Shown in pieces: positions 6,860 through 25,764 of a stretch of DNA of 29,905 nt (position 1 is its first letter; each line of letters opens with the position of its first letter). The stretch is from the IMG/VR virus record IMGVR_UViG_3300037189_030413, positions 1 through 29,905 of that record. The stretch is one strand, 5' to 3'. The translations under genes and the position numbers were made by a program. Below the pieces are notes generated by a model. The model had not been told where the DNA came from. It searched no databases and was given only the letters and a program-made list of their open reading frames with translations. This stretch comes from a virus.

Positions 6860-7075
6860 TTGAAATACTCCTTAGTTGACTTGATTGACGATGTGCCCAG
6901 TCGGCGGAATTGTCGAGTTGGGCGGTTTGATTGACGGTTCGGTTGGCCTGTCGGCTCCGCTATCACCAGTTTCGTTCCTGAGGTTGACCTCTCGGTTCCT
7001 CAGGGCGCAGTCGGGAGTAGTTGCACTGTTATTACTATACATATATCGCTCGAGAGAATTTATTCCTCGAAGTCA
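6860..7075 (-). promoter_or_regulatory. Leader region of the capsid gene with hairpins
   Basis: These 216 bases are non-coding inside an otherwise tightly packed block. CCTGAGG (6977-6983) pairs with CCTCAGG (6998-7004), with an inner ACC/GGT pairing, giving a stable stem-loop in the capsid transcript leader. Nearer the scaffold stop, TATATGTATAGT on the minus strand (around 7034-7045) resembles a -10 region but has no good -35. A small CGAG/CTCG stem lies at about 7050-7069. Between 6885 and 6945 the minus strand carries GTCAATCAA twice. Likely roles are a separate capsid promoter and/or an mRNA-stabilising leader; neither is proved. Confidence 0.45.
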
Positions 7076-7921
7076 TTATTTCCCACCATTAGCCTTGTGC
7101 CACTGGTAAGCTTGCCAAGCATCCTTGAACTTGGGAGGAGCTGCATTGCGGACAGCATTGCCAGTGCTCGTCTTGAGAAGAGCTTCTTTCTGTATCTTTC
7201 TTGCTTGCTCATTCTCTTGCTTTGTTATTTGACCACGAACTATGTAGTACGCATCCTCCAGCTTCAGCTCAGGACGGCTCATCAGGAGCTGGGCGACAGG
7301 CATGCGGATCTCGTCCGAGGTGAGGTCAGGATGCTGGGACTTGAAGGTGTCCAGTGAGACCTGACGGCGCTGGGCCTCGAGGTCCTGCTGGAGCGGTGTC
7401 AGCATCTCCTGCATCATCTTGGCGGCCTGAAGGTTGATGCGCTCCTGGAGTCCCTCATCGGACCAGGCATCGTGCTCGGGCTGCTTGGTGGCAAGCTCAC
7501 GGACGTTGCGGGCAAAGTCACTCTCTGACAGGAGGGCACGCTGACGTGCGAGCTCCGCCTTCTCAGCCTCCAGCTCCCTGCGGACCTGGGCGATCTCCTG
7601 CGTCTTCTGAGTGTAGCTCGACCTCAGGTTCTGGACGAGCTTCTTGCCGTTCTCCGGAATGTGCTCCAGGATCTTGCGGTAGTCTGGGATTCCCTTGTGC
7701 GTGCCGTTCATGATGGGATCGTCGCCAAAGTCGGCACCGATCAGCTCATCCAGTGACACATCCAAATCGTCTGTGCCACCTCCCGTGCTCTCTGTTGCAT
7801 TCAGATTGGAGAGACCAGTATTACCTTGGCTCCCAGCTCCCCGTGTCTCCTGCACATTCCCAGATGGCTCTGCTGCGGTCTGTGCAGGTGCCGTTCCCGG
7901 CGTGGCTGCGTTGATATCCAT
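7076..7921 (-). CDS. Scaffolding protein-like
   Basis: The 281-residue protein has a low-complexity Ala/Thr/Gly/Pro N-terminus (1-50) and an acidic patch (D-D-L-D-V-S-L-D-E-L). Residues ~90-180 form a long charged alpha-helical, coiled-coil-like stretch (RRELEAEKAELARQRALL; QQDLEAQRRQVSLD). The C-terminus is basic and ends FKDAWQAYQWHKANGGK. Phage scaffolds are helical, charged, lack catalytic motifs, carry a basic capsid-binding tail and sit just before the capsid gene, as here. The start ATG at 7921 follows the preceding stop (7930) by 8 bases, with AAGGAAC as ribosome site. Assignment is by architecture and synteny. Confidence 0.72.
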   Translation of the reverse strand: MDINAATPGTAPAQTAAEPSGNVQETRGAGSQGNTGLSNLNATESTGGGTDDLDVSLDELIGADFGDDPIMNGTHKGIPDYRKILEHIPENGKKLVQNLRSSYTQKTQEIAQVRRELEAEKAELARQRALLSESDFARNVRELATKQPEHDAWSDEGLQERINLQAAKMMQEMLTPLQQDLEAQRRQVSLDTFKSQHPDLTSDEIRMPVAQLLMSRPELKLEDAYYIVRGQITKQENEQARKIQKEALLKTSTGNAVRNAAPPKFKDAWQAYQWHKANGGK

Positions 7922-12817: not shown

Positions 12818-12837
12818 GTGTGTGCTCCTCAGCTCTA

Positions 12838-12866
12838 AGTATACAACACATCATGATTTATTCTAC
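12838..12866 (-). promoter_or_regulatory. Promoter-like site for terminase genes
   Basis: On the minus strand GTAGAA (12866-12861), a 17-base spacer and TATACT (12843-12838) give the same 31-base frame as the other phage promoters. TGTATACTTA matches the GGTATATTTA box at 8 of 10 positions. The -35 is weak, so this late promoter may need an activator. Confidence 0.45.
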
Positions 12867-12953
12867 TCCCGCAGCAAATTGTTTATAAGAAGAATCTTAT
12901 CATGCTCCCGCCCGCGTTGCACGGTTTCGGTCGGAGACGAAACCTTCCCTCAC

Positions 12954-12982
12954 TTGTAAAAGATTCCATTCATGGATATTAT
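12954..12982 (+). promoter_or_regulatory. Promoter P1 with CCA-N4-TGG in spacer
   Basis: TTGTAA (12954-12959), a 17-base spacer and TATTAT (12977-12982). The spacer holds the inverted repeat CCATTCATGG at 12966-12975. It drives the 70-aa gene at 13008. It is the best match to the consensus of the plus-strand promoter set (13229, 13607, 13831, 14127). Confidence 0.72.
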
Positions 12983-13007
12983 TCTATCATAAGGAAGGAG
13001 TGAAGGA

Positions 13008-13220
13008 ATGGAGACGAAGACTGAACTGAAGAGTGGCGACCTGATTTGGTCCAAGAACTGGAAGGGCGGTGAGCGCCTTGGATATATCGTTGAATCCCAG
13101 TTTGTCTATCCCGCTTTCGGTGGGACCTGGGATTGCACGGTGGTTGTCGGTGGTCTCAAGTTCTACGCCGAGGTGAATGGCCCGGTCTGGTCCGAGGAGT
13201 TGGGGGCCTGGACTTTTTGA
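13008..13220 (+). CDS. Small SH3-like unknown protein (70 aa)
   Basis: The ATG at 13008 follows AAGGAGTGAAGGA. The 70-residue product has an L-K-S-G-D-L-I-W start, a G-Y-I-V-E-S turn and V-V-V-G-G-L-K-F-Y strands, which together suggest a small SH3/KOW-like beta barrel. Similar G-D-L/V plus G-x-I/V patterns appear in proteins at 13656, 14628 and 16714. It has its own upstream promoter and is followed by another promoter (13229), so it is a single-gene unit. It is unusually Trp-rich (four Trp). No known family was recognised; an early, host-interacting role is speculation. Confidence 0.75.
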   Translation: METKTELKSGDLIWSKNWKGGERLGYIVESQFVYPAFGGTWDCTVVVGGLKFYAEVNGPVWSEELGAWTF

Positions 13221-13228
13221 GGGATCCC

Positions 13229-13257
13229 TTATAAAAGATGCCAAACATTGGTATATT
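13229..13257 (+). promoter_or_regulatory. Promoter P2 with CCA-N5-TGG in spacer
   Basis: TTATAA (13229-13234), a 17-base spacer and TATATT (13252-13257). The spacer contains CCAAACATTGG (13241-13251). It begins 8 bases after the stop of the preceding gene and serves the 104-aa gene at 13282. Confidence 0.7.
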
Positions 13258-13281
13258 TATTCATCATCAAGGAAGGACATC

Positions 13282-15460: not shown

Positions 15461-15489
15461 ATAGTTACCAATGTGTGGCAATTTTACAA
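15461..15489 (-). promoter_or_regulatory. Distal promoter with CCA-N5-TGG, overlapping nuclease 5' region
   Basis: On the minus strand TTGTAA (15489-15484), a 17-base spacer and AACTAT (15466-15461). The spacer carries CCACACATTGG, the same operator-like repeat as the plus-strand promoters. It points toward the 59-aa gene. It covers an upstream in-frame ATG (15471) of the plus-strand nuclease gene, which argues for the nuclease start at 15507. Confidence 0.55.
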
Positions 15490-15506
15490 CCACACTGGAG
15501 CTAAAG

Positions 15507-15962
15507 ATGCTGAGGGACCTGAACACTGAGGACGGTAGGAGAGCGATGGAAGTTGGTGAGGCCTGGGAGGAGAGACTGTGGACTCTCTTCAGGTCCATGG
15601 ATCCAGACACACGTTGGATCTCCAAGGGAGAGGGAGACTGGCTCGCTGGTCATGACTTCATCTTCAAGGGCAAGCGTGTGGAGGTGAAGACCAATGAGGG
15701 AGTCTCATCCTCAGGCACTCCTTATGACACCTGCTGCCTGGAACTGGAGACCAGAGGTGGCAACACCATAGGATGGAGACAGGGCAAGGCTGATGTCGTT
15801 CTTCTGGTTAACCGCTCACAGTCGATGGGATACTTCTTCAACGCCGCTAAGCTGAGGGATTGGGCAAAGCACCGTCCATTCTTCTGGAAGCATGAGGCCA
15901 AGTGCACCAAGATTAATTGGAATCAGACCGACGCTGGCTTCATGACTGAGGTGGCACTATGA
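15507..15962 (+). CDS. PD-(D/E)XK-type nuclease
   Basis: The start at 15507 (MLRDLNTEDG) has GGAG six bases upstream. An in-frame ATG at 15471 has no ribosome site and lies in a minus promoter; another at 15546 is also possible. In the 151-residue product, Asp 50 (G-H-D-F), Glu 59 and Lys 61 (R-V-E-V-K-T) form the D-X8-E-V-K core of the PD-(D/E)XK fold. An upstream helix contains Glu 18 and Glu 21, and a later strand reads KADVVLLVNRS. Proteins like this cut or resolve DNA; a resolvase or host-DNA nuclease are both possible. It is the only DNA-metabolism enzyme recognised outside packaging. No strong promoter is visible upstream, though TTGACA lies at 15428. Confidence 0.72.
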   Translation: MLRDLNTEDGRRAMEVGEAWEERLWTLFRSMDPDTRWISKGEGDWLAGHDFIFKGKRVEVKTNEGVSSSGTPYDTCCLELETRGGNTIGWRQGKADVVLLVNRSQSMGYFFNAAKLRDWAKHRPFFWKHEAKCTKINWNQTDAGFMTEVAL

Positions 15963-16042
15963 GACCTGTCTATATTCCGCCCTCGAGGTCACCGATCGAT
16001 CCCCTGTGGATTGCAAAAAAAAGATTCAAGTCTGTGATATAA
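15959..16042 (+). CDS. Possible 27-aa peptide overlapping nuclease stop
   Basis: An ATG overlaps the nuclease TGA as ATGA and opens a 27-codon frame (MRPVYIPPSRSPIDPLWIAK...) ending at 16042, just inside the -35 area of the RNA promoter. The overlap type is the one used between real genes here and the peptide is basic and Pro-rich. It is too short for composition to help, so it could be chance. Confidence 0.25.
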   Translation: MRPVYIPPSRSPIDPLWIAKKRFKSVI

Positions 16043-16066
16043 AACGATTCGACGAGTATATTTAGA
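16033..16066 (+). promoter_or_regulatory. Promoter of the structured RNA
   Basis: TATATT at 16057-16062 lies within GAGTATATTTAGA, matching the phage box GGTATATTTA except at its first two bases. The -35 is weak (TGTGAT at 16033-16038 with 18 bases, or GTGATA with 17). Initiation about seven bases after the -10 would fall at 16069, the first base of the first helix. Confidence 0.6.
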
Positions 16067-16556
16067 TATGAGGTCGCCGTTGATGCAGTGGTTCTAATCC
16101 ACACCTCACACTACCAATCAGACCTGACCAATGGACATATGATGTCTGCGAGATGTTCCAGCAGCGGAACTACAACACTCAAAGACTAACCATCCAACTG
16201 GTACCGGTCATTCGAGTAAGTTGTTGGGGGGACACTTCCAACGGAGTATGAAAGGCTGAGGTCTCCATACTGCAAAGCACTGAATGGCGCCGGATGGAAT
16301 GATTGGCACACCTGGAATAGGGATAGAGCTGAAGGGATGATAGGCTCAGTCCGAATACAGGGATAGTAGGATATAACGATCTGAAACCTACTGAATACAA
16401 CTACAGACTAACCATAGTCCTAGTTGTATTTAGAATTAGACACTAACAAACTCTTTAGCTCCGCCTGAGGGGAGAGTGAGTGTCACTCTCAAAAAGTTCT
16501 TACAAACTCCAGAGTGGAGAATATATAATAGAGAGAAAGGAACGAAGCTTCCACTC

Positions 16557-16588
16557 AGTTGAGTTAGAGTCTAGTTGAGTTAGAGTTT
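16557..16588 (+). repeat. Tandem 16-base repeat in the RNA
   Basis: AGTTGAGTTAGAGT occurs at 16557-16570 and again at 16573-16586, giving two adjacent 16-base units (ending CT and TT). It is near the 3' part of the RNA candidate, between the hairpin cluster and the terminator. Confidence 0.85.
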
Positions 16589-16673
16589 GGAGTCTGAACA
16601 GGGGATATTTACTTCAGTGGTCTTCCCACCTCAGACTGAGCGAAATAGGAACTGGCTGCCTCAGAACCTGCTC

Positions 16674-16704
16674 CGCCCCCTAGAGCTTGTCACTCTAGGG
16701 GGCG
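16674..16704. terminator. Strong bidirectional terminator
   Basis: CGCCCCCTAGAG (16674-16685) and CTCTAGGGGGCG (16693-16704) form a perfect 12-bp stem with a 7-base loop. On the plus strand it is followed by TCCTTCTATTC, a pyrimidine-rich tail. It ends the RNA transcript on one side and the last gene of the late block (stop at 16714) on the other. Confidence 0.88.
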
Positions 16705-16713
16705 TCCTTCTAT

Positions 16714-17037: not shown

Positions 17038-17427
17038 TCATCTCTTCCTCAGTTCATAGTGTGGATAGTCTCTAAACTTCTTCCAGTCTCCGCCCCAGGA
17101 CAGTTCGAATCCATCCCTCTCAGACTCTGGTATCCTGTCCCAGGCATCCTTGACCTCATCACTCAGCATGTGGAAGGAAGCTATATTCTCCCAGTCAATT
17201 GGATACGGGACTATATCCACAGCTAGACTGGGAGAGGAGTTGTGCTTTGACTGTGGCCACCTCAGCTTTGAGTGTCCGCTCTGGTAGGCAAGTTCCTGAT
17301 CTTCCTTGCCCCTGTATCCACAGATCACTGAGAAGTCGACAGTCTTTATGACATCATTCATCAGTCTCTGTAGAAGTGGATGGCACTCCTTCAGCTTTCC
17401 CAGACTCTTGGCACTGAACTGAGGCAT
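17038..17427 (-). CDS. Endolysin, M15-family peptidase (VanY/L-Ala-D-Glu type)
   Basis: The ATG at 17427 (MPQFSAKSLG) overlaps the previous stop as TGATG; a TTG one codon upstream is less likely. In the 129-residue product, His 62 (Q-S-K-H-N), Asp 71 (L-A-V-D-I-V-P) and His 123 (Y-P-H-Y-E-L) are the zinc ligands expected of M15 peptidases. Asp 120 precedes the last His as in this family, and W-G-G-D-W lies at 111-115. Such enzymes cut peptide bonds in peptidoglycan at lysis. There is no signal peptide and no separate wall-binding domain, so release would depend on a holin. The length is typical of the short single-domain members. Confidence 0.92.
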   Translation of the reverse strand: MPQFSAKSLGKLKECHPLLQRLMNDVIKTVDFSVICGYRGKEDQELAYQSGHSKLRWPQSKHNSSPSLAVDIVPYPIDWENIASFHMLSDEVKDAWDRIPESERDGFELSWGGDWKKFRDYPHYELRKR

Positions 17428-17579
17428 CAACGCACCTTCAGGTGCATCAGTATCTCCAGTAGATCCTCAGCAAGGATCGCTCCCTCCTCAGGACTGATGC
17501 CGCCCTTGGAGAACTTGATCAGGTCAATGATGACCTTGACGACTCTGTTGAAGGAGAAGGTGTTCTCGTCTAATTTCAT
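17427..17579 (-). CDS. Small unknown protein before endolysin (50 aa)
   Basis: The ATG at 17579 follows GGGAGATATGACAG. The 50-residue product (MKLDENTFSFNRVVKVIIDL...) has one hydrophobic helix (VVKVIIDLIKF) too short and charged for a certain membrane segment. A second helix reads EEGAILAEDLLEILMHL. Its stop overlaps the endolysin start (TGATG), so the two are coupled. It could be a lysis regulator or a small membrane-associated protein; this is inference from position. Confidence 0.6.
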   Translation of the reverse strand: MKLDENTFSFNRVVKVIIDLIKFSKGGISPEEGAILAEDLLEILMHLKVR

Positions 17580-20388: not shown

Positions 20389-23300
20389 TTAGAGCGGTTT
20401 CTCCTTCGTTGGCAGGCTCTGTGCCTGGATCTCGTCGGCGAGATCTTTTATCTCCTCCTGCTGTGACCTGATGCCCCTCCTAAGTTGGAGTTCTGGGATA
20501 CCGGCGCCCTGGACAGTGATAACTCCAGGAGCTGAGAGCCACTGTTTCAGTGTGGTGTCTGCATATGCTCCCTTCAGTTGGTCATTGCCAAGCGTTCCAA
20601 AGATCTTGCCCCACTCAGTTGCAGGACGACTAAAGCCTGTTGACTGTGCAGCGATCAACCATCCGCGATAGATGTCAGTCTCTGCATCACTGATGACAAA
20701 GACTTTGCCACGGTAGGAGTTCTCACCAGGTTCAGCAGGTTTTATTTCAGCGTTGAACCATGTCAACAGGTTTGTACCGAGTCCAAAGATGTTGGCGAAT
20801 GCGACATGCTCAGGTGGAATCCTGTTCTTACTGACTTTCACCTCGAGCAACTGTTCCAACTTGACATCTGAGAAGATTGCTTGACCAGCCAGTTTGGTGC
20901 CGGTGCCAACTTTCGAAGCAATGATTCCCTGTTCCCATGCACGACGTCCACTGGCACCGACCATCTCAGGACCGATAAGAGTTCCGAGAGGATCAGCCAT
21001 CATGCCAGCCATTATGTTGAGACCGTCTGCATATGGCATCACTGGTAGCGTGATGGCCTGACCTTCCCTGCTCTTCGCGGCCGTGTCAAGTTTGACGATG
21101 CCACGTGCCACACCGAATTCAGGAGGATAGTAGAAGCTGAGGTCGCGTGCATTCTGGTCACCGATGGCAATGTCACTCAAGTTCTTGGTGAGCCTGAAGA
21201 GCTTGATCATGCGACCAGGATTCTCGACGAAGTTCTTCATGAACTGGACGATGGACTGACGGTAGTAGTTGTAGAAGACGAAGAAGTTTCTACTGACCAC
21301 ACGCTCAGCCTCAGTCAACGTGCCGTAGTCGAAGAGAGAACGACGACCAAAGTCAAGCGCCTCATCGATGGTTGATCCTGTCTCTAGTGCATCACGGATG
21401 GAGTTCATTCGCCAGACGTTATCTGTCCATGCTGCGAGTGGATCACCGAGGAACTCACGCCAAGGTGTGAACACTTTCTTACGATATTTGTTTCCCTTGG
21501 CAACGTACTTGTTCTCAAACTCAGACACTCGTCTCATCACATCATTTGCATCAGCTATGAAGTCACGTGCCACCTCAGTGTTGATGGCACTCCTGAAGAT
21601 TCCGCTCTTGATAGCGAGGTCATAGAGCTGACCACGTGTGTAGATGTTGCCGAACCTGTCAGTGACAACTGGAACCATGCGTGATGCAGCATCAACTGAC
21701 TTCGGTCTACCGAGAAGCATGATGTTTGCCGACTCAGCCCACTTGATTGGATTGACTATCTTGCCAGTCGTGTAGTAGGTGATGAGAGGCGCTGTCAGGT
21801 TGTTGACACCGTGGAACCTGGGATTGACTGAGAGGATGGCATGGTAGTAGAACGCGTTGTATGAGTCCCACAGTTGCCTGAAGAAGTTGGACGCACGGAG
21901 CGCACCTTTGTCTCCTGCATATGCAAGGTCAGACATGCGTGCCAGTTCCGTCAGCATGCCCTTGAACTTGGGAGCAGATCCCAGTTCACTTGCCATCTTC
22001 TGAGCCAGTGCAGGTGATACGAACGCGTCAGCTGAGATCTTATTGCTAATGAGCAGGTCGATCTGAGCTAGGCTCTGTTCCATCTTGAAACCGTTTATCG
22101 TTCTACTGTCTTTGAGAAGTTCAACTGATGCTTCAACGTCACTTAGGAATGGAGCAGGTTCTGCTCCGACAATGTCACTGATGAACTTGGCAACGAATGA
22201 TTTTTGCTGAGCACCAGGCAATGATCTGTTGACGACATCTTCAAAGAATGCACGTCTTTGTGCTTCATCTTTGATAATTTCTTTCACACGACCAGCTTGC
22301 TTGATCTCTTCTTTGATTATCTCATACCAGAGTTTGTCTCCACCTGTCACTGTCTTACTGATTGTGCTGATGAACTGTGGTGTATCAGACAGAGCGATAG
22401 GACGCTCAGCGATAAGTTTCACTGCAGTCTCAGCCATGATGTCAGCAGACTTGACACGACCGTATGCGACGACAAGCGTCTCGGCAGTCAGTGATTTGGG
22501 AATTGACATCACCTTGCCACCTGCAGCATCGATGACAGGATTGATGTTATTCTTAACGATATCTGCAGCACGATCAAAGATCTCATCCAGTCGACCTGAA
22601 AGGTCAGCAGGACTCAGAGATGTAACTTCCTTGATGAGCGCGTTGTACTCGGTCGAAGAAGCAAGAAGAGTATCTCCCCACTTGTAGGCAGGTGAGATGG
22701 CATTGTAGAGAGGTGTACGCTCGGTTCCGTAGATGAGTGACTTGACCAGTTCATCGGCATACTGCTCACGGTTGAGTTTGGAGACAGGACTCTCAAACTC
22801 ACCGACAAGAGGACCTTGTCCAAGTGCGATGAGCTTCTCTTCATCAGGTGCATCAGTTGCCACACCGTACAGTTTGGCAAACTCAGGATCAGTTGAGATC
22901 CTCTTGAACTCATCCCTGAACACCTTGTCAAGAGCGGACACCTTGCTTCTGGCAGACGTGATCATGGCACGCTGATCAGCTGTGATAACTGCCTCGAGTG
23001 GCTTCATGGTGTCATTGATCGCATTCTTCATGCGACTGAAGATGACAGGTGCACCGCTCTTCAGCTCAGCAGCACGACGTGACTGGGCAGCTGACTGACG
23101 AAGGATCTGTTGGGGAACGGTGCGCTCTGCAGGAGTTGACACTTCAGCAAGTGCACGTGATGTGAATCCCTCGCGTGTTGATCCAGCCAGATTATCGACG
23201 ACTGCATGTGTCAGTGTCTGGAGATCTGCAGCTGAGACAGTTCCTTTGGTCACCTCATTCGTGATTCGATCTGCCTCAGATCGTGGCACTAGACCAGCGA

Positions 23301-25764
23301 TCTCAGACTCGTTGACTGCATTGAGGAGCCTATTGCTGAGCTCAGCACGTTGACCTGCAGGAAGCTTGGTGAGGTCGTATCCCTGCACAACCGCCTTGCC
23401 TGAGACGACATCTGAACGCATTCCACGCTGGATGGGCTCGAGGACTGTGGTGTAGAACTTGGTCTTCTTGAACTCGCTGGCAAGCTTTGCTGCTCCCTCA
23501 GGAGTCGTGAATGTGCGAGGAGTTACGGCGACTGTCTTTGCTCCCTTGGAGTATGCACCAGCGAGACCAGTGTCCATGACCTTGACACCGTTGTCGAATG
23601 CAGCGGTTGCCTTGATGGCGTCTGCATATGCTTTCTTTCCATTGGCAAGCTTCTCAAAGATCTGTGCAGCACGGACTCTCTGGCCCCTTTCAACACCTGA
23701 GTAGGCCTGACGGATTGCCTTAGCGATCTTAGTGTCAGCATTGGCAGCAACTGAGAGATAGGGCTTGATCAATCTCTCCTCTGCGGGAGAGATCTCAACA
23801 CCACGCTCTAGCCTGTCGACTGTCTCAGCGATATCGGAGTACTGCCTGAAAGCTTTCTGTCCATCGGTGAAGTAGTCACCTCTCAGGACCTCGCGCATGT
23901 TGGGAGTCTTCTCAACGTCATCGGCAAACTTTGACTCTGGGAACGCTGAGGTGGATGCAGACTTGCCAGCATCGTGAGCTGCGGCATCAGTAGCACCGGC
24001 TGCCAGTGCCTCGTCGAATGCCTTCTCGTACTTGCGTGCGGCTGAGAACTCATCGGCAAGCTTGGCACCGTAGATGAGACGGACGTCACCGGGCACAAGC
24101 TTCTCAGCCAGCTTTGACATGCCAGGAAGAGACTCGACATAGGCACCGACTGCGCCCTTCGCTCCAGCTTTCAAGCCCGTAGCACCTGCCTCGAGCAGTC
24201 CCTCACCTGCAGCACGTGCAGCACGAGTGAACTCGACAGATGCCTTGGCACCGCCGATACCGCTCTCAAGCAGGCTCAGGTCACCGAGACCGAGCATGTC
24301 ACCAGTGAAACCAGCCAGGCGACCGAGCGTCTCGTACTTACGGACCTCAGGATCTGGATTGTACTTGTAGAGATCACCGATCTCCTGAGTGTATCCGCCG
24401 CCCTCAGCGACGTTGGCAAGCACGTTTGAGTAGAGGCCAGGTGCCCTGTATTTCTCCTCACGTCCTGCTTCCTTCTGACTTTGAATCTCAGCAGGCGTGA
24501 ATGCGTATCCAACTGTTCCAGCCAGAAGGTTGGGAACAGTCATGGCGGATCTCATCAGCCATGCGGTGGGACTCTCAACGGTTGCACCTGTCGGATACTT
24601 CTTGGCGAAGAGTGCTCCTCCTGTCGTGTACTTCTCAGGATTCCTGAGGACGTTCTCTTTCTCAGACTCGCTCATCCACCAGGGACGAGCATCGTACTGG
24701 CCGCCCTTCTCCTTCTTGCTGATGATGTCTTCGATCTCAGCAGGAGTGTAGTCAGTGGATCCGACCTTGACCTCGACATCCTCCATGAGGGGCTTGCCAC
24801 CGACGGTGTCACCTGTTGGACGCTTCTCGATCCGAGTGATGGGCTTGGCGCCCTTCTGGCTCAGCATGGCGCGGTCAGCTGCTTTCTGGTCAGGGAGCTC
24901 AGCCTCGTAGATTCCCTGCAGGAATGCAAGTTGACCAGGCTCCAGGTTGGGAACCTTGCCCTCTTTCGTCTGGCGACTGAGTGCCAGGATGGTGGGATCA
25001 TTGGGAATTCCCATCTCGACACGAGGATCCTGCGTGATGAGACGTCCCTTGCCCTCGATGGTGTCAGGCAGTTCCCTTATCTGGCGCTGCAGGTCATTGA
25101 TGATCTCCTCGTGGGAGACATTGGGATTGAGCTCCCTGACTTTCTGGTAACCACGCTTGAATGCCGACCACTGTGCACGCTGCTGCTTCTGCTCATCAGC
25201 AGGCAGATCTTTCAATGAGCGCTCGAAAGCAACATCATCGAATGGACTCTGGTACATGTGGACTTCTGTCTCTGGCACCTTGACCTGGGGACGCATGACA
25301 TCCATCAGTCCTGGAGTCTCGACAGGTTTCACATTGATGGGAGCCGTTGACGGTGATGGACTGAAGATAGCGACTTTCGACGTGAACGGTTTGGTGATGT
25401 TGTAGCCACCGACGGAGATGGGAGTCTTGATGGCACCGATCTGGCGCTCAACTTCCTCACGCACTGCATCATCAGTCCAGAGCATGTTCTCTTTTCTGAT
25501 CTTGTAGGTCAGTTCCTTGCGAAGTCTGTCCTCCTCAGTCTCAGACTCCATGACACCGGTAGTGACAGCTAGAGGACCGGCAGCCGACTGACTGCGCTCC
25601 TCAGGCGTTGACTGTGGCTTGACCTCAACACGAGGTTGTTTGCCACTCTGCAGTGACTTGATGTACTCCTTTCTATCGTACTTTGGCGCAGCAGTCGGGG
25701 CAGCGGCCGGTGTGCTCGGTCCCTGCAGCGACTCAATAAACTTTCTGCGTTCCTCAGGCGTCAT
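20389..25764 (-). CDS. Giant internal virion / ejection-type protein (1791 aa)
   Basis: This is the largest gene, about 18% of the genome. The N-terminus has two similar short motifs (RRKFIESLQGPS at ~7 and RKEYIKSLQSGK at ~31). Near residues 405-430 is a hydrophobic segment (VPNLLAGTVGYAF), then long Ala/Glu/Lys helical regions. Around 1300-1345 is an aromatic stretch (YYHAILSVNPRFHGVNNL). Around 1475-1525 is an R-N-F-F-V-F-Y-N-Y-Y-R-Q segment with E-N-P-G-R-M, resembling LPD38-type regions of large polyvalent or internal phage proteins. No lysozyme, protease or polymerase motif was seen. Size and place after two other internal proteins suggest a T7 gp16-like DNA ejection role. Confidence 0.72.
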   Translation of the reverse strand: MTPEERRKFIESLQGPSTPAAAPTAAPKYDRKEYIKSLQSGKQPRVEVKPQSTPEERSQSAAGPLAVTTGVMESETEEDRLRKELTYKIRKENMLWTDDAVREEVERQIGAIKTPISVGGYNITKPFTSKVAIFSPSPSTAPINVKPVETPGLMDVMRPQVKVPETEVHMYQSPFDDVAFERSLKDLPADEQKQQRAQWSAFKRGYQKVRELNPNVSHEEIINDLQRQIRELPDTIEGKGRLITQDPRVEMGIPNDPTILALSRQTKEGKVPNLEPGQLAFLQGIYEAELPDQKAADRAMLSQKGAKPITRIEKRPTGDTVGGKPLMEDVEVKVGSTDYTPAEIEDIISKKEKGGQYDARPWWMSESEKENVLRNPEKYTTGGALFAKKYPTGATVESPTAWLMRSAMTVPNLLAGTVGYAFTPAEIQSQKEAGREEKYRAPGLYSNVLANVAEGGGYTQEIGDLYKYNPDPEVRKYETLGRLAGFTGDMLGLGDLSLLESGIGGAKASVEFTRAARAAGEGLLEAGATGLKAGAKGAVGAYVESLPGMSKLAEKLVPGDVRLIYGAKLADEFSAARKYEKAFDEALAAGATDAAAHDAGKSASTSAFPESKFADDVEKTPNMREVLRGDYFTDGQKAFRQYSDIAETVDRLERGVEISPAEERLIKPYLSVAANADTKIAKAIRQAYSGVERGQRVRAAQIFEKLANGKKAYADAIKATAAFDNGVKVMDTGLAGAYSKGAKTVAVTPRTFTTPEGAAKLASEFKKTKFYTTVLEPIQRGMRSDVVSGKAVVQGYDLTKLPAGQRAELSNRLLNAVNESEIAGLVPRSEADRITNEVTKGTVSAADLQTLTHAVVDNLAGSTREGFTSRALAEVSTPAERTVPQQILRQSAAQSRRAAELKSGAPVIFSRMKNAINDTMKPLEAVITADQRAMITSARSKVSALDKVFRDEFKRISTDPEFAKLYGVATDAPDEEKLIALGQGPLVGEFESPVSKLNREQYADELVKSLIYGTERTPLYNAISPAYKWGDTLLASSTEYNALIKEVTSLSPADLSGRLDEIFDRAADIVKNNINPVIDAAGGKVMSIPKSLTAETLVVAYGRVKSADIMAETAVKLIAERPIALSDTPQFISTISKTVTGGDKLWYEIIKEEIKQAGRVKEIIKDEAQRRAFFEDVVNRSLPGAQQKSFVAKFISDIVGAEPAPFLSDVEASVELLKDSRTINGFKMEQSLAQIDLLISNKISADAFVSPALAQKMASELGSAPKFKGMLTELARMSDLAYAGDKGALRASNFFRQLWDSYNAFYYHAILSVNPRFHGVNNLTAPLITYYTTGKIVNPIKWAESANIMLLGRPKSVDAASRMVPVVTDRFGNIYTRGQLYDLAIKSGIFRSAINTEVARDFIADANDVMRRVSEFENKYVAKGNKYRKKVFTPWREFLGDPLAAWTDNVWRMNSIRDALETGSTIDEALDFGRRSLFDYGTLTEAERVVSRNFFVFYNYYRQSIVQFMKNFVENPGRMIKLFRLTKNLSDIAIGDQNARDLSFYYPPEFGVARGIVKLDTAAKSREGQAITLPVMPYADGLNIMAGMMADPLGTLIGPEMVGASGRRAWEQGIIASKVGTGTKLAGQAIFSDVKLEQLLEVKVSKNRIPPEHVAFANIFGLGTNLLTWFNAEIKPAEPGENSYRGKVFVISDAETDIYRGWLIAAQSTGFSRPATEWGKIFGTLGNDQLKGAYADTTLKQWLSAPGVITVQGAGIPELQLRRGIRSQQEEIKDLADEIQAQSLPTKEKPL

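Follow-up and report, generated by a model that had tools for sequence, protein, structure and literature searches.

Which element occupies the longest gene-free stretch of a small and otherwise densely coding phage genome? The window analysed here is the whole of a 29,905-base IMG/VR record of a marine phage. The majority of its genes lie on the minus strand, including those for the internal virion, major head, portal and T4-type large terminase proteins, and that for an endolysin. A close isolate was not found, as indicated by the low identity of the terminase to known phages (~23-25%, among the matches listed) and of the head protein (24-29%), and a 1791-aa protein encoded at 20389-25764 had no match in PHROGs. 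By the gene list of this analysis, the coding density is 0.918 (~92%). The largest gap measures 670 nt (16044-16713) and the runner-up 464 nt (12818-13281). A previous reading of the letters, here called the sequence-only reading, had proposed that the larger gap holds an independent, heavily structured RNA gene, which would be either a member of GOLLD or ROOL, or a new analogue of them. With ~640 nt, such an RNA takes up more than 2% of the ~30 kb genome.

The stretch is indeed free of genes, since the longest stop-free frame inside it has only 73 codons. A conserved protein frame, which the sequence-only reading had named as evidence against an RNA, was looked for across the region and found in none of L145, L008 and L205, three of the relatives described below. 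A protein-coding nature of the region was rejected, because no frame is conserved.

Site, promoter and terminator

Seven relatives from IMG/VR carry a non-coding RNA at the same site, just 3' of a PD-(D/E)XK nuclease gene. Together with the window they form a set of eight loci (window, L003, L007, L008, L141, L145, L155 and L205), all on metagenomic contigs. L003, L007 and L008 were recovered via the terminase and the upstream PD-(D/E)XK gene, a ten-sequence terminase alignment led to 63 loci, including L141, L145 and L155, and a nuclease profile run over 46 records led to G001/L205. All eight loci have, 3' of the nuclease gene, a non-coding stretch that contains a promoter-like box. Its length from box to terminator reads as ~500-640 nt once inserted open reading frames (ORFs) are subtracted. 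In L206, a distant relative, a nuclease-like gene is retained, with other ORFs after it and the RNA missing.

In the window, the nuclease-like gene lies at 15471-15962 (+), outside the RNA. The encoded protein amounts to a bare domain of 163 aa, in which D62, E71 and K73 are invariant across the alignment; by fold, it matches homing endonucleases and resolvases of the PD-(D/E)XK kind only weakly. The stop codon of its gene is overlapped by a micro-ORF of 27 aa (MRPVYIPPSRSPIDPLWIA...; 15960-16043, +), a further neighbour, whose core IPP...P..P.WIA can be read in the window, L003, L007, L141, L145 and L205, in peptides of 18-27 aa. On the 3' side, a small convergent ORF is followed by an endolysin gene (17038-17430). 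The earlier placement of the RNA, beside the end of the late block and near the lysis genes, was thus right in part only.

The RNA is headed by a phage one-box promoter, TATATTTA, at 16057-16064 (+). Its consensus, TATANTTA, has seven copies in the window, where 0.14 would be expected. The six other copies (8873, 11029, 12843, 15385 and 20352 on the minus strand, and 13252 on the plus strand, the latter a TATATTTA box near the end of the second-largest gap) each lie directly 5' of a ribosome-binding site with its start codon. Ahead of the RNA, the box is identical in L003, L007, L008, L155 and L205, and reads GATAGTTA in L141 and L145. The promoter box of the sequence-only reading is therefore a real element, but not a convincing sigma-70 promoter, as a scan for the latter gave one site against 1.8 expected. 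It is instead an 8-base box specific to the phage, and the copies of TATANTTA look like a one-box promoter system that serves the whole genome of a ~30 kb phage whose terminase is T4-type.

The T4 late promoter, TATAAATA, which spans -13 to -6 (PMC1524935), is likewise a single 8-base box without a -35 element, ahead of structural genes, whereas the box here is TATANTTA. A gp55 homologue was not identified in the window. By the spacing of the T4 late promoter, transcription is predicted to start at 16070, which corrects the earlier start at 16069; the conserved micro-ORF stops upstream, at 16043. The predicted +1 is the first base of an acceptor-like stem in the window, L008 and L205, and lies one base before this stem in L145. 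Beside its RNA gene, L205 encodes a 103-aa protein with a sigma-70 region 4 (1165-1476, +; Pfam above cut-off), a candidate factor for the TATANTTA promoter. Another sigma-70 region 4 protein is encoded in L206, at 297-629. We infer the transcription, start site and length of the RNA, as well as its late timing and its dependence on a phage sigma factor. The label "late" follows from the presence of TATANTTA also ahead of portal and terminase-region genes.

The terminator proposed earlier was found at 16674-16704 (+), as an intrinsic-terminator-like hairpin with a 12-bp stem, nine G-C pairs and a 7-nt loop, though the U-tract after it, TCCTTCTATT, is weak. Terminator-like hairpins can also be read at the end of the gene in L003, L007, L008, L141, L145 and L155.

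Base pairing in two types of 5' domain

Folded as a single sequence, 16069-16710 lies 3.6 s.d. below shuffles (z -3.6), a stability that the reverse strand matches. For this reason, the eight stem-loops of the sequence-only reading, although they belong to a fold more stable than shuffles, are on their own little proof of an RNA. The 15-pair stem pointed out at 16394-16430 is present in the fold (with ~16 pairs), but not evidently conserved. Group-I-like R/S motifs, seen by eye in this stem, were discarded, as there is no room for P3/P8 and no model match. Decisive support comes from comparative folds, in which the RNA alignments lie far below shuffles and the adjoining nuclease gene does not (z -1.5 to 0.1).

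The 5' domains of the eight RNAs belong to two families, type A (L003, L007, L141 and L155) and type B (window, L008, L145 and L205). The type A alignment spans ~400 columns, and its structure consists of ten helices, one of them a pseudoknot (AGCCC/GGGCU) in which five of six pairs are invariant so far. In this structure 95.9% of the pair cells are paired, and both sides have changed in 20 of the 50 pairs, against 9.6 in shuffles, with none of 500 shuffles reaching 20. When the partners were slid, 1-4 double-changed pairs were counted, against 20 unslid, a control that is generous because the structure was partly drawn by RNAalifold from the same alignment. An independent control is the z of the alignment fold, obtained by column shuffles with refolding; type A reached -6.6, whereas the nuclease gene of these four genomes stayed at -0.5. 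Taken one at a time, type A sequences have unremarkable folding energies. The alignment reveals strong compensatory evolution in type A. The covariation check in homologues suggested by the sequence-only reading was run in part; it revealed compensatory base changes that exceed the controls, as expected of a structured non-coding RNA gene, and the neighbouring nuclease gene yields no comparable signal in the alignment folds.

The type B domain of the window (16070-16440, +) is homologous to that of L145 and appears exchangeable. The profile for this type was built from the window, L008 and L145. The alignment folds reached z -5.4 for window/L145 and z -4.9 for L008/L205, compared with -1.5 and +0.1 for the nuclease genes of the same pairs, and the four-way alignment was poorer (z -1.6). 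In both pairs, the plus strand gives a better score than its reverse, which is the orientation that the promoter implies. Four plus four sequences are too few to resolve a large share of the type B body.

At the extreme 5' end, type B carries a tRNA-like element (16070-16107, +), with an architecture common to the window, L145, L008 and L205, and with stems that covary. In the window, it is composed of an acceptor-like stem (16070-16074/16103-16107, GAGGU/ACCUC), a D-loop-like linker (16075-16087), a T-stem (16088-16091/16099-16102, GUGG/CCAC) and a T-loop (16092-16098, UUCUAAU), all on the plus strand. Perfect acceptor-like stems occur in all four members (GAGGU/ACCUC, GGCAU/AUGCC, GAGC/GCUC and GAGACCG/CGGUCUC), each together with a T-arm having U54, C56 and A58. 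The linker has 13-15 nt and a G-rich, D-loop-like core, the T-stem of 4 bp is GUGG/CCAC once and GAGG/CCUC three times, and the T-loops are UUCUAAU, UCCAAAU or UUCCAAU (U[UC]CNAAU). When 1.76 Mb of sequence was searched for this combination, the four type B RNAs and one unrelated site came up. The element has no anticodon arm and no CCA. In real tRNA, residues 19 and 56 make contact at the elbow (PMC4810234), and a similar contact between D-loop and T-loop (G19-C56) may form in type B. The sequence-only reading had missed this 5' end, just as it had missed the specificity of the promoter to the phage, the exchangeable nature of the 5' domain and the homing-endonuclease insertions.

The following searches did not reveal the RNA outside the eight loci. 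Compared with isolated phages, the RNA of the window and that of L008 had no nucleotide match, the L007 RNA had a 30-nt chance match only, and the nuclease had no match; a nucleotide search of 50,697 phage records did not retrieve the RNA either. In IMG/VR, a 15-base T-loop pattern occurred in 114 stretches, of which only L003 and L007 proved to be relatives rather than mere pattern matches, and a long type A pattern matched only the four known contigs, while five sites in GTDB genomes matched it by chance; a copy that has diverged from the exact patterns may escape such scans. The type A model R1 gave no additional copies over 40 loci.

Exchange of domains between close relatives

L007 (type A) and L145 (type B) share 89.6% identity along 3.7 kb, with 86% in a 72-nt block just 5' of the promoter. 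Their 3' domains, together with the terminator, are 79% identical, in contrast to the 5' domains, which do not align. The nuclease genes are mostly different as well. That two phages of ~90% identity differ in the 5' domain while sharing the promoter and the 3' end indicates that the RNA is modular.

The 3' domain of the window (16440-16673, +) has GUUAGAGU repeats, and UGCUCC before the terminator. It resembles those of L007, L141 and L145, and is only partly alignable to relatives. The alignment of L007, L145 and L141 folds with z -3.3. Two direct copies of AGTTGAGTTAGAGT can be read in the window (16557-16570 and 16573-16586, +), and GTTAGAGT is repeated in L007 and L145 too. A common 3' domain is thus found under both 5' types, in L007, L141, L145 and, in part, the window. 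It is not clearly present in L008 and L205, which do not show the GUUAGAGU repeats.

Between the 5' and 3' parts, L003 and L007 carry an ORF for a GIY-YIG homing endonuclease, and at the corresponding place L008 has a 91-aa ORF with no family assigned (6898-7173). Homing-driven co-conversion is a plausible motor of the 5' domain swaps. The type of RNA does not follow the subtype of the nuclease. Subtype 1 accompanies type A in L003 and L007 and type B in the window and L008, and subtype 2 accompanies type A in L141 and type B in L145; the two are, by these pairings, unlinked.

Known RNA families and possible roles

At gathering thresholds, no Rfam family was detected in the whole window, and at E up to 10 only chance-level families appeared, none of them relevant. 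The GOLLD model (RF02032, E<=10) and the ROOL model (RF03087, E up to 10) matched none of the eight records, and the latter none of 14 control genomes either. The group I intron model (RF00028, E<=10) was likewise empty in all eight, while it did match in control genomes. ARAGORN reported no tRNA gene or tmRNA in the window, the tRNA model matched none of the eight records, and lowered ARAGORN thresholds gave only noise. As for tmRNA, there was no model match, no tag reading frame and no CCA end. A weak cobalamin-riboswitch match in L008 (E 0.5) was taken as chance, like the other sub-threshold Rfam matches. The model searches proposed earlier (GOLLD, ROOL, tmRNA and group I) thus gave no relevant match, which leaves membership in GOLLD or ROOL unsupported and a new analogue as the surviving branch.

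This is almost certainly a real structured RNA gene, and in all likelihood it lies outside the described Rfam families. The idea of an independent, heavily structured gene is borne out by the promoter, the terminator, a site kept in eight genomes and the covariation, with transcription deduced from these. The same site in eight phages, the lack of a family match, the own promoter and terminator, and the tRNA-like fold make a new class of large phage RNA very probable. Few large structured phage RNAs have been described, and no function is established for GOLLD or ROOL.

GOLLD is a large RNA of phages and prophages with a conserved 3' region, a less conserved 5' region and sometimes tRNAs in a linker (PMC12286853, PMC6582537). 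GOLLD and ROOL form RNA-only cages, whose role is not known (PMC12286853). The RNA described here resembles GOLLD in being a large phage RNA of similar size, and may also do so, judging by several members, in a kept 3' and a variable 5' part. However, it is shorter, matches GOLLD in neither sequence nor structure, and its variable parts are discrete, exchangeable types. Moreover, its tRNA-related element sits at the extreme 5' end and has no anticodon arm, and the window has no tRNA genes. It can also be likened to ROOL, a phage-encoded separate transcript of ~570 nt with pseudoknots and no known protein partner, but there is no model match, no tRNA island and, as far as the model tells, no shared helices. 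The tRNA-like domains of tmRNA and other tRNA mimics likewise have an acceptor-like stem and T-arm and a stemless D-loop. In contrast to them, the element here lacks CCA, a tag frame and a model match, and the intervening arm is wholly absent.

As a whole, we favour an independently transcribed, modular, structured RNA of ~640 nt that founds a new family and serves as a scaffold, to which we give a probability of roughly 55%. The phage's own sigma-like system would transcribe the RNA along with the structural genes, beginning on the first base of the acceptor-like stem. This would hide the 5' end inside a helix that stacks on the T-arm, and the terminator hairpin would close the 3' end. With both ends closed, the RNA could be long-lived and abundant, and late in infection its body might act, much like GOLLD and ROOL, as a structural scaffold or a platform for assembly. 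The 3' domain would do a common job and the exchangeable 5' domain would set specificity. A stable structural RNA of this kind is suggested by the promoter common to structural genes, the closed ends, the structure, the missing frame and the lack of an obligate protein partner. The scaffold function, taken by itself, is somewhat less likely than not. A further reading, which is rather doubtful, sees in the RNA a late machine or scaffold that acts on the translation or tRNA-handling apparatus of the host. Its 5' recognition domains would be interchangeable (with two or more folds, one of them a mini-tRNA starting at +1) and would be exchanged on the common 3' domain, like specificity cassettes, among close relatives.

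The main function could also be tRNA mimicry, in which the 5' end engages the tRNA-handling machinery (the ribosome, RNase P, modification or CCA enzymes, or tRNA-targeting defences) as a decoy, regulator or tmRNA-like device. Type B, with its acceptor-like stem, canonical T-loop positions and G-rich D-loop-like linker, would suit this role, type A retains a hairpin with a UGUGA T-loop, and the elbow is exploited by tRNA mimics in other systems (PMC4810234). We nevertheless regard it as unlikely, as the anticodon arm and CCA end are missing, the tRNA and tmRNA models are empty, type A has no acceptor stem, and the element makes up only ~40 of 640 nt. The insertion of a GIY-YIG ORF in two copies and the swapping of 5' domains between ~90% identical phages would fit a mobile 5' domain, either a ribozyme akin to an intron or a homing cassette, which would travel with GIY-YIG endonucleases and only borrow the phage promoter. 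This is very unlikely, given the empty group I model and the six of eight copies without a GIY-YIG ORF. Furthermore, the domain starts at the predicted transcription start, which leaves no 5' exon, and the RNA is confined to one locus, with the type A scan of IMG/VR matching only these phages.

The constant position of the nuclease gene directly upstream, in eight of eight loci, could point to an RNA-dependent module in which the RNA is guide or cofactor of the PD-(D/E)XK protein. Yet both RNA types occur with both nuclease subtypes, L206 keeps a nuclease-like gene without the RNA, and the protein is only a bare domain with weak fold matches, which makes such a module highly improbable. A divergent GOLLD or ROOL member has hardly any credibility: size, phage location and the tRNA-related sequence are similar, and so may be the kept 3' and variable 5' parts (as in GOLLD, PMC12286853), but both models are empty in the eight records and no tRNA genes are nearby. 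An equally remote idea is a phi29-like pRNA that packages DNA for the large terminase, whose gene lies ~3.5 kb away, as the size and structure are unlike the ~170-nt pRNA and the terminase is T4-type. Terminases of this type are not known to require an RNA.

The RNA combines selection for base pairing with the swapping of entire domains among closely related phages. A concrete handle is its tRNA-like 5' end, which raises the question of the tRNA-binding factor that it touches. Together with the 5' domain swaps, which are natural chimeras, this handle makes the function of large phage RNAs testable.

In L205 and L155, a second promoter-like box stands ahead of the 3' part, so that two transcripts are possible in these loci. 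In L205, a second TATATTTAGATATGAG promoter on the minus strand (615-530) is directly followed by a short hairpin (GAGCGGUGGUAAGG...CCUUACCACCGCUC) and a U-run, possibly a tiny second RNA with its start base again in a stem. A similar second box occurs in L155 near 5400 (-), and in L148, near 3695, the start of a GIY-YIG-like ORF 3' of the terminase adjoins a GATAGTTA box.
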